In this document: piece after piece, positions 21,626 to 25,174 of the stretch
How the letters are laid out: each line of letters starts with the position of its first letter
Position numbering within the stretch: the stretch's first letter is position 1
From: Planctomycetota bacterium
Lineage (GTDB): Bacteria; Planctomycetota; Phycisphaerae; Sedimentisphaerales; Anaerobacaceae
Length of the DNA stretch: 46,471 nucleotides
Reading direction: 5' to 3'
Assembly: GCA_014384025.1 (NCBI GenBank)
Contig: JACNGQ010000174.1
Location: 1 to 46,471 of the forward strand
Position numbers and translations under genes: made by a program
The notes under the pieces: generated by a model
What the model saw: the letters and a program-made list of their open reading frames with translations, nothing else
Told to the model about the DNA's origin: nothing
The model's database searches: none

Positions 21626-24600
21626 TCAGAACTTAGTGAAGATTGCGTGGCGGACGTCACTCATTTTGCCCAGTTCCTTCCAAAAAGTTATGGACTTGAT
21701 GGTAGTGCAGCGGGTAAGTGTAATTGGGCCGGTATATACAGGTGAAAATGTGTTTGGTTCGGTCCCGTCGAGTGTGTAATGTATCCGCCCGATGCCATTG
21801 CGGTCGGCAAGTTCAACTTGCATTGAACTTTCAAAATTCCGTTGAGAGGTTAATATTATTGGTGAACTGTAATAATCTTGCGGGGCAAAAGCCACAGAGC
21901 TTTGGAGTGAGTATCCGCATGTACACCCGGAACTGGATTCCGGCACAAGAATCAAGCCCCCTGCAGGAATTATGTTAAGCCAGCATCCCGGCCGAGTGAC
22001 TTTAGTCAACGGGATTCCTCTGGTGCTTTCGACTTCGATCGGATACATGCGTGGATTTGCCCCTCGACCGTAAAGATAATAGGACGAACCGGTCAGTCCA
22101 CCGCAGCCATTGCCTCCACGATAGACGTAGTATTGCTTCTTCTCGCCGGTATGGAGATCGAAGGCATAAGGCCGCGAATAGATAGTCTGCCCGTTGATTA
22201 CCGGGTGCTGCCATTGTTCGCCGTGTTCACCGCCTGTACCGAATGGTTCTGTCCCGGCAGAATTCAAACCTATGTAATCAGTCTGCCACTTTTCTTCTTC
22301 CGTATCGGCGGCGAAAGCGAACAGACCGTAGTTGACAAGATTGTCCTTGTTGTATGTGCCCGTGAAAAGTATGGTGTTCTCGGCATAATTGAGAAACATG
22401 ATATGTTCGTATGGGAACTGGAAGGGGCGTTGCCATATTTTTACGCCGGTTTCCGCGTCGAGCGCTATAATGAACAGGTCCTTTTCACAGAACTTATCGA
22501 TTCGAAGCCGGCCGTCATCGTCCTTCATTATTTCCGGATTTCGGCATTCTGCGAAATAGATTCGGCCATCACCGACAGTAATGGCACTGTTCATAATCGA
22601 TCCATCTTTGTAGGTCCACCGAACCGTACCGGTGTGCCGGTCCATGGCAAAGAGATAATCACTTACGATAACTGACCTGAAGTCACCTTCCAGTACGTGG
22701 CTTCCGTTATCAGGTTGGCCATGAAAATCCTGTTTGTAAAATGAGGCCCTGACTTTCTGGCCGGTACCTACAAGGCAATCGCCAAGATGGTTCAGGTAAC
22801 CCCAGTCATATTTGTAGTGATCATCCAATTGAGGGGCTTTGAGAGTAACTTTGCGTACACCGGTAGCAACATCGACAGCCCAACACTTCTCCTCGGCAGC
22901 AATATAAACGTATTCGTCGGTGGCCAGCATATGGCCGCTGTCCTTGAGCGCGCCGATACGCCTTGAGTTGGGCACATCAAGCTGCCACAGTTCTGTGCCG
23001 TTATACGCATCAACACAGATGATACCCTCGACAGTGGGAACAAATATGCGTCCGTCCTTCACCAGTGATGACATCGGCCTATGGTGTCGGTCGATTATAG
23101 ATCGGGGCCCGGGCTTGCCAAACCACTGCAGGGCCATCGGCCCACGGAGCTGGTCGCCGCTACAGGCCGTATGGGCGGCATCTGCATAAAGCTGGGCCCA
23201 GTCTCCGCTGCCCAGGAGGGCTCCACGCCTGATGACTGCCCATAATCCATTGTCTCTATTGATTCTCCAACCTGGAATCGTCGCGTCATTGAGCCAATGT
23301 TCAAGGTTGGATGGTTTGAGTTTATTCCTTTTCCTGTCGGTTTCCTTGAATTGGCCGATAATTGCTGCACCGCCACATGGCCTAAGCACGCGATACAACT
23401 CGGTTGCAGATGGGGGCAGTTCGCCCGAGAGCAGTGTACTTTCGGAGACGATTAGGTTAGCAAAATAAGCTGGATATGGAAGCTCATCCAACATGCCGTG
23501 ATGTACAGTAATCCTGGAACCGTAATACCCGGCTCTGTGGAGTTTTTTGCGAGCGGTGATTACTTTCTGAGTATCTTGCTCTACTGCGATAACCTGTAGT
23601 TTCGTGCGTTTGGCGATTTCGTACGCAAGGCGACCTTCCTCACAGCCAAGCACCAGACAATATCCCTGATGTATATTTGCCTCTTCAACGATTTGCTGAG
23701 CTGCCAAAGAGTACATATCAGTCAAGTCGTCCTGAGGATAAGGATCGACTTCAGTTCCTAAATGGACGAGTTCTGGTTTCCCGGTAGATACAGTCGAGCG
23801 ATTGCTGAAGCAGTGAATCGTTCCTTCGTCGGTGCAGACAAATAAGCGGCCATTAGCGACGCTTAATCCGTAGGCATCGCCGTTAACAGGTGAGTTCCAG
23901 GACTCGCGACCGTCGGAAGCACTAAGCGCCACTACTTCATCTTTTCCACCAATAAACAGTGTATTCCCGGCCATAATTAGTGAGTATGGATTATCGCAGG
24001 CGTGTTTCCAGATAAAGCATTGTTCCAGCGATTCTTTGTTTTGTCCCAGGGAAAGTTGGATATTCCGCAAGTCGTCCTTTAATTTGTTTGCCGGGGGGCT
24101 GTTCTTAGCAAGTTTTTTAAGCTGATCGCTAATCTGTTTTTGCCGGCGCTCGAGAGTTATTCTTTGCTTCGAAAGTGCAAGGTATTTCTTTCGATCAAGC
24201 GCTCTCAGCTCTTTCTCCGATTGCATATATGCCATATCATCCTTAACGACCATACGCAACCCGCCAAATGTTGCTATTGTCTCCTTCGTTGTGACATCGG
24301 AGGCATTGAGCTGTTTTGGGCCACGGCCGGGCCCTGTCACGAGAGTGTTTTCTGCTAATAGTGTATAAGCTCCGCCGGCGCTGCCGAATTCCCCTTGGAA
24401 TGTACCGTTTTCACGCGAAAAGGACACAGGGCCTGTCCGGCCAGTCGGTACGTACAGATTTTGAGTCGAAGCGAGCACATAACCTTGTGGCGAGACATCG
24501 AGTTTTTGCTGCCACAGAACCTCCCCATTTTCAGCGTCCAGAGCAAATAAAAAAGCACCCTGAATCGGAAACAGGCCTGCTGCGAAAAACACCTTACCTG

Positions 24601-25174
24601 CATCGACTACTAATCCGGTCCGAACGGGAAACAACGATATCATTCGTCCATTGCCCGGCACCATGCTGTTTTTAGCAGCGACATCAAATTTCCAAATCAA
24701 TGAACCGTTGTCAGTTGAAAGGCAATATACACAGCCATCATCAGATCCAACGTAAAGTTTGTTTTCAGCTACAACAGGTGCCAGTCGGACAGGTCCGGCG
24801 GCAAAGAATACCCATCGCACTTTCCCGGTTTTAGCGTCAAGAGCGTAAACGCTGAAGTCGGCGGAGGAAGCAAAATAGACTGCATCACGTACAACCACTG
24901 CATGAAAGGCACGGTCGTAAATTACGGTTGGTCTTAGTTGGTTGTGGTTGTGCCAGAAGTCCTGGGCGGCTGGTGGCGGCCAGGCAGGTTCAGGTGGGTT
25001 GTTAGACTGGAATCGCCAGCATTCGGAGAGCTCCAGAGGCAATTGTTCTGAGGTTATACCGCTTCGTGATTTGTCGTGGTTATATGTTGGCCAATCATCA
25101 CCCCGGGACACATTGGCTATCAGCAAGGTCATGAAGCTCATCAACGTGAGCAGCCGGTATGTGCTTCTCATCAT
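21626..25174 (-). CDS. Exported PQQ-propeller / methyltransferase / PQQ-propeller fusion
   Basis: A 1182-residue protein. Residues 1-24 are a signal peptide. PQQ-type beta-propeller 1 spans ~28-460, with repeated LDAxxG[KE]xxW blades such as ALDAKTGKVRW and ALDAENGEVLW. An inserted lysine/glutamine-rich coiled coil lies at ~327-385. Residues ~485-650 match a class I SAM methyltransferase: VLGCEEGRLAYEIA is motif I, VIAVEQD gives the ribose-binding acid, then HHGMLDELPY and LYRVLRPCGGAAI. A second propeller (~655-1110) follows, with blades ending W and MDRHTGTVRW. The last ~65 residues (IHYTLDGTEPN, YTGPITL) resemble the chitobiase C-terminal module. The protein has no haem motif. A methyltransferase outside the cytoplasm would lack SAM, so the domain may be a degenerate binding module. 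No good ribosome site was found. Confidence 0.85.
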   Translation of the reverse strand: MMRSTYRLLTLMSFMTLLIANVSRGDDWPTYNHDKSRSGITSEQLPLELSECWRFQSNNPPEPAWPPPAAQDFWHNHNQLRPTVIYDRAFHAVVVRDAVYFASSADFSVYALDAKTGKVRWVFFAAGPVRLAPVVAENKLYVGSDDGCVYCLSTDNGSLIWKFDVAAKNSMVPGNGRMISLFPVRTGLVVDAGKVFFAAGLFPIQGAFLFALDAENGEVLWQQKLDVSPQGYVLASTQNLYVPTGRTGPVSFSRENGTFQGEFGSAGGAYTLLAENTLVTGPGRGPKQLNASDVTTKETIATFGGLRMVVKDDMAYMQSEKELRALDRKKYLALSKQRITLERRQKQISDQLKKLAKNSPPANKLKDDLRNIQLSLGQNKESLEQCFIWKHACDNPYSLIMAGNTLFIGGKDEVVALSASDGRESWNSPVNGDAYGLSVANGRLFVCTDEGTIHCFSNRSTVSTGKPELVHLGTEVDPYPQDDLTDMYSLAAQQIVEEANIHQGYCLVLGCEEGRLAYEIAKRTKLQVIAVEQDTQKVITARKKLHRAGYYGSRITVHHGMLDELPYPAYFANLIVSESTLLSGELPPSATELYRVLRPCGGAAIIGQFKETDRKRNKLKPSNLEHWLNDATIPGWRINRDNGLWAVIRRGALLGSGDWAQLYADAAHTACSGDQLRGPMALQWFGKPGPRSIIDRHHRPMSSLVKDGRIFVPTVEGIICVDAYNGTELWQLDVPNSRRIGALKDSGHMLATDEYVYIAAEEKCWAVDVATGVRKVTLKAPQLDDHYKYDWGYLNHLGDCLVGTGQKVRASFYKQDFHGQPDNGSHVLEGDFRSVIVSDYLFAMDRHTGTVRWTYKDGSIMNSAITVGDGRIYFAECRNPEIMKDDDGRLRIDKFCEKDLFIIALDAETGVKIWQRPFQFPYEHIMFLNYAENTILFTGTYNKDNLVNYGLFAFAADTEEEKWQTDYIGLNSAGTEPFGTGGEHGEQWQHPVINGQTIYSRPYAFDLHTGEKKQYYVYRGGNGCGGLTGSSYYLYGRGANPRMYPIEVESTRGIPLTKVTRPGCWLNIIPAGGLILVPESSSGCTCGYSLQSSVAFAPQDYYSSPIILTSQRNFESSMQVELADRNGIGRIHYTLDGTEPNTFSPVYTGPITLTRCTTIKSITFWKELGKMSDVRHAIFTKF

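Follow-up and report, generated by a model that had tools for sequence, protein, structure and literature searches.

Two PQQ-type propellers around a class I methyltransferase fold: an apparently undescribed bacterial protein family with export signals and a graded SAM site

The protein described here contains two propellers (P1 and P2) and a methyltransferase-fold domain (MT), and each of these parts is of a known kind. Class I methyltransferases bind SAM through motif I (D/E-x-G-x-G-x-G), through the acidic ribose-binding position that ends strand 2 and, often, through an acid after strand 3. The closest described relatives of MT (Methyltransf_25/11; 3DLC, RebM 3BUS, and UbiG 4KDR) have the complete fold and the strand-2 acid in common with it; unlike them, MT has a degenerate motif I (in our protein and in most of its relatives), is probably exported, and is set between propellers. 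The propellers share their repeat type with BamB/PQQ_2-type propellers (3Q7M; tetrathionate hydrolase, 6L8A), which Foldseek also matches; however, our protein has two propellers plus MT and scores 87.6 bits against the BamB equivalog model (TIGR03300), for which the cut-off is 285.2 bits. The propellers also resemble those of PQQ-dependent alcohol dehydrogenases, but the score with the model for that family (TIGR03075) is 59.7 bits versus a cut-off of 480.05 bits. Finally, pseudo-enzymes generally, as described in a review (PMC10211241), conserve a fold after a catalytic or cofactor motif has been lost; the fold is conserved and the cofactor motif lost in our protein also, but, unlike pseudo-enzymes in general, the family is probably exported, fused to propellers, and includes members in which the motif is intact.

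No model in Pfam or NCBIfam covers the full protein, and we found nothing on a P1-MT-P2 family in the open-licence literature on exported or periplasmic Planctomycetes methyltransferases and on propeller-methyltransferase fusions or permutations. Because this search covered papers outside subscription, we describe the family, which is large, as apparently undescribed.

Architecture of the window protein

The window, that is, the whole 46,471-nucleotide stretch of DNA from a Planctomycetota bacterium that we analyzed, encodes the protein on its minus strand (25174 to 21626) in a single open frame of 1182 residues (Table 1); the plus-strand reading of this segment was dropped because stops occur throughout its translation. 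The continuous frame of the original prediction is real. The window comes from a 448-contig draft genome, and an assembly or frame artefact could have fused three genes; we regard the chance of this as negligible, because orthologs from two other independently assembled MAGs (L029 and L030) have exactly the same length and 85–87% identity to the window protein, and because relatives occur in closed single-contig genomes, with zero internal stops in the matched stretches listed. These same observations exclude the assembly-error join that the original prediction had named as its refutation. The window genome also encodes 19 proteins with the MT-P2 junction (E 8e-15 or better), that is, the window protein and 18 further members.

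The two propellers, the chitobiase-type C-terminal module, and the export signal proposed from the sequence were all borne out. The PQQ_2 family is recognized with 126.8 bits (Pfam gathering score 27.6), Methyltransf_25 with 34 bits at residues 507–601 (cut-off 27), and CHB_HEX_C_1 with 52.8 bits (cut-off 22). The AlphaFold2 model of the whole protein (pLDDT 88.8, pTM 0.87, 56 aligned sequences) places in order an N-terminal helix (residues 2–22), P1 with a two-helix hairpin inside it, an alpha/beta domain (residues 483–649), P2, and a C-terminal beta module; the leader immediately precedes the start of the propeller (DDWPTY). The hairpin corresponds to the coiled coil that had been thought to interrupt the first propeller; some relatives have it and others do not.

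The Foldseek list for the full-length model was filled by propellers, so we modeled MT alone (pLDDT 95.8, pTM 0.92). Among solved structures, 3DLC, a SAM-dependent methyltransferase, matches best (Foldseek E 2e-13, TMq 0.80; Z 21.4, rmsd 2.4 over 171 residues), the best 50 solved matches are all class I methyltransferases or close relatives, and the family MT profile also detects 3DLC by sequence (E 1.6e-17). The structure prediction suggested earlier as a check on this domain thus returned a complete class I SAM-dependent methyltransferase fold (seven-strand, Rossmann-like).

Table 1. Coordinates and assignments for the parts of the window protein and for the two-gene relatives.
Feature	Residues	Coordinates	Strand	Basis or remark
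Signal peptide	1–25	25100..25174	(-)	Sec-like, no twin arginine; MMRSTYRLLTLMSFMTLLIANVSRG then DDW; read from sequence
Propeller P1	26–462	23789..25099	(-)	Pfam PQQ_2; high-pLDDT strands
Lysine-rich helical hairpin in P1	328–384	24023..24193	(-)	Modeled helices 328–354 and 360–384
MT, class I methyltransferase-fold domain	484–652	23219..23725	(-)	Methyltransf_25; model; 3DLC match; dN/dS
Degenerate SAM motif I	508–514	23633..23653	(-)	VLGCEEG versus D-x-G-x-G-x-G; profile of 88 type A domains
Acid at end of strand 2	E532	23579..23581	(-)	E or D in 82/88 relatives
Propeller P2	655–1100	21875..23212	(-)	Model; profile match to type B middle propeller
Four conserved P2 cysteines	C1024, C1064, C1084, C1086	21917..22105	(-)	Pattern C-x(25-60)-C-x(15-26)-C-x-C
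Chitobiase/hexosaminidase-type C-terminal module	1113–1174	21653..21838	(-)	PF13290, CHB_HEX_C_1
Two-gene form		L104:4981-9278; L105:3102-7925		MT with intact SAM motif

Fused, permuted, and split relatives

Searching the contigs of genomes identified at least 533 relatives, of which the best 80 loci were kept. The fetched loci encode 88 proteins with the order signal-P1-MT-P2 (type A) and 11 with the order signal-MT-P2-P1 (type B; one weak further match, L094, was set aside); both orders are present in the window genome. The 88 type A proteins have the architecture for which a search had been proposed, with the qualification that the C-terminal module varies: among 35 relatives the additions include Malectin (15), CHB_HEX_C (5), CBM9 (2), and CBM96 (1), and LamG is found also.

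In profile comparisons, every domain best matches its own counterpart in the other order: P1 of type A matches the C-terminal propeller of type B end to end (E 1e-57), P2 matches the middle propeller (E 4e-35), and MT matches MT (E 8e-27); crossed pairings of P1 with P2 reach approximately 1e-11, that is, general propeller similarity, and pairings of MT with propellers are not significant. These matches identify MT-P2-P1 as a circular permutation of P1-MT-P2. In a quick tree built from MT and the beginning of P2, a branch with SH-aLRT 99 has all type B sequences on the same side, so that a single permutation event is enough to explain them. A third arrangement is found in L104 (a complete chromosome) and L105, in which a gene for MT-P2 is directly followed on the same strand by a P1-only gene with its own leader; these MT-P2 genes start with a purple-acid-phosphatase-type (fibronectin-like) part, L105 also contains LamG, and together they are sister to the window clade (support 93). 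Because the same three parts occur fused, permuted, and split, P1, MT, and P2 look like one functional unit.

On two Planctomycetota contigs, type B and type A-like genes are same-strand neighbors within a few kb (L036:1561-3969 with L036:5980-9213; L090:105-3119 with L090:5980-7449). In two other loci (L098:5986-9150 and L094:1853-5014), P2 is split into a second open frame, perhaps by a sequencing frameshift or in a decaying gene.

The MT-P2 junction occurs in 53 of the 294 sampled genomes of the phylum, and the type A MT domain in 41 (E 1e-25). Most of the 88 type A proteins are from Planctomycetota and Verrucomicrobiota; the other MAG labels are Kiritimatiellota, Lentisphaerota, Armatimonadota, Poribacteria, Sumerlaeota, Omnitrophota, and Bacteroidota. 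Some labels (e.g., Nealsonbacteria) are probably binning errors; the three Bacteroidota members (L063, L072, and L075) look genuine, since they group in one clade and their leaders are lipoprotein-like. A search of a plasmid collection returned propeller matches only.

Export signals, the SAM site, and gene context

By a simple hydropathy test, 84 of 86 type A and all 11 type B proteins (95/97 in total) have a hydrophobic N-terminal leader ahead of their first domain, that is, before P1 in type A and before MT in type B; twin-arginine-like motifs are present in only six leaders. The window protein is therefore probably secreted, judging from its leader and those of its relatives. If the leader were instead a membrane anchor or mis-called, the protein would stay in the cytoplasm and MT would act there; we consider this highly improbable given the position of the leader directly ahead of the first domain in both orders, the lipobox-like leaders of the Bacteroidota members, and the carbohydrate-binding C-termini. 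A four-cysteine pattern in P2 (type A, 77 of 78 proteins; type B, 10 of 11; shuffles, 0.8%) is compatible with disulfides or a metal site and also speaks for export. Sec exports unfolded chains, which would leave SAM no way to cross the membrane bound to the protein; the difficulty that the original prediction saw in an exported SAM-binding domain is thereby upheld.

In the window protein the positions of the SAM site are occupied by V508, G510, E512, G514, E532, and M561; relative to the textbook site, D508 is replaced by V and G512 by E, motif I reads V-L-G-C-E-E-G with a carboxylate at the position of the central glycine, the motif III position (561) is M, and the strand-2 acid is retained. 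Across the 88 type A domains, D508 is found in 20, G510 in 49, G512 in 57, G514 in 81, acid 532 in 82, and D561 in 39. When the whole of motif I (A or S accepted at the first glycine) and acid 532 are both required, the site is kept in 19 of the 88 and incomplete in 69. The type B sequences divide into a group that retains the acid and shares a conserved loop (mostly VHxG(C/S)G(D/N)G) and a group in which both loop and acid are absent. These residue counts and the two type B groups show a SAM site that decays in grades inside one family.

Despite these losses, the domain itself is conserved in the window protein. Comparing the window gene with its two orthologs, dN/dS for MT is 0.13 and 0.18; in the same three genes the values are 0.16–0.17 for P1, 0.17–0.21 for P2, and 0.27–0.30 for the C-terminal module. 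The window protein and both orthologs agree at every position of GYCLVLGCEEGRLAYEIAKRTKLQVIAVEQD, and their loop and acid region is unchanged. The dN/dS values show purifying selection on MT of the window protein. The original prediction had left a choice between an unusual exported enzyme and a scaffold with a repurposed Rossmann domain; the scaffold is the better fit, given that the window protein has lost two landmark residues of the SAM site yet conserves the domain, but approximately one-fifth of the P1-MT-P2 members keep the textbook SAM motif.

The window is rich in genes for polysaccharide breakdown, with two sulfatases, a GH106 protein, a beta-helix protein with a GH120 insert, and Gfo/Idh/MocA, 3-keto-disaccharide hydrolase, and acetyl xylan esterase-like proteins. 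Of 99 genes next to family members, none proved to be a conserved partner that could point to a pathway. A neutral ceramidase-like gene (window:20099-21577, plus strand) is convergent with the window gene, and a ceramidase-like gene also adjoins the L029 ortholog. In the same polysaccharide-degradation setting, an 855-residue protein (window:34775-37342, minus strand) matches the middle domain of hydrazine synthase alpha (PF18582, E 3.5e-21). Elsewhere in the window genome, two free-standing, 3DLC-like class I methyltransferases (L125:1267-2010, G000:C141; L124:1267-2040, G000:C326) have lipoprotein-type leaders (FCGTGC, FCGAGC) and textbook SAM motifs (IDLGSGPG), and one of them shares its strand with a type B gene and lies approximately 55 bases downstream of it. 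This type of methyltransferase (P0002) was dropped as a candidate conserved partner of the family because it occurs in only 1 of the 294 phylum genomes (E 1e-20). A 244-residue methyltransferase of the window genome with a signal-like N-terminus and the motif VVVDIGAGDGW (L132, G000:C158:18438-18728) is a further candidate exported methyltransferase.

A probable propeller assembly with a pseudo-methyltransferase hub

We assign a probability of roughly 0.6 to the interpretation that the window protein is an extracytoplasmic, carbohydrate-associated propeller assembly in which a pseudo-methyltransferase is retained as a hub. The window gene product would be exported by a Sec-type route, and its two PQQ-like propellers and class I methyltransferase fold would constitute one unit; MT of the window protein would most likely be non-methylating, serving as a structural hub between the propellers that possibly binds a ligand or has a re-fitted pocket. 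The propellers and the C-terminal module would then contact or bind extracytoplasmic polysaccharide or surface material, or help to process it. The carbohydrate association draws on the Malectin, CHB_HEX_C, and CBM additions of the relatives and on the polysaccharide-breakdown genes of the window. Several observations count against this interpretation: the intact-motif relatives, including the split pairs L104 and L105, keep the textbook SAM motif despite near-universal export signals; E532, G510, and G514 remain in the window protein, which could allow it to bind SAM or a nucleoside weakly; and no conserved neighbor gene points to a pathway.

If the pocket is emphasized over the scaffold, MT could be a Rossmann fold re-fitted to another small molecule (a nucleoside, sugar nucleotide, or glycan end), making the protein a sensor or an enzyme of other chemistry. 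The high conservation of G514 and the strand-2 acid, the variant loop of one type B group, in which H replaces D, and the unchanged loop and acid region in the three closest orthologs are all consistent with this proposal; however, pocket residues vary widely over the family and the other type B group has neither glycine loop nor acid, so we consider it somewhat unlikely. We consider it decidedly unlikely that MT is an active methyltransferase that works outside the cytoplasm on SAM reaching it there (e.g., by lysis or an unknown exporter): motif I and the acid are kept by 19 of 88 type A proteins, nearly all with export signals, and the window genome also encodes the two lipoprotein-type methyltransferases with textbook motifs, but D508, the motif III acid, and the central glycine of motif I are all missing from the window protein, Sec-type export delivers an unfolded, ligand-free chain, and we found no evidence for SAM outside. 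It is unlikely, too, that the intact-motif minority are working SAM-dependent methyltransferases that modify polysaccharides or surface proteins with SAM available in the periplasm or farther out, with the window protein as a partner or decayed copy of them.

A fold that binds a cofactor of cytoplasmic origin has undergone fusion, permutation, and splitting within a widespread, probably exported family while its cofactor site decays in grades. The family therefore makes it testable whether SAM chemistry takes place outside the bacterial cytoplasm and what use is made of a cofactor fold once its cofactor is unreachable; for the way in which the three domains assemble, the naturally permuted and two-gene forms provide a built-in test.
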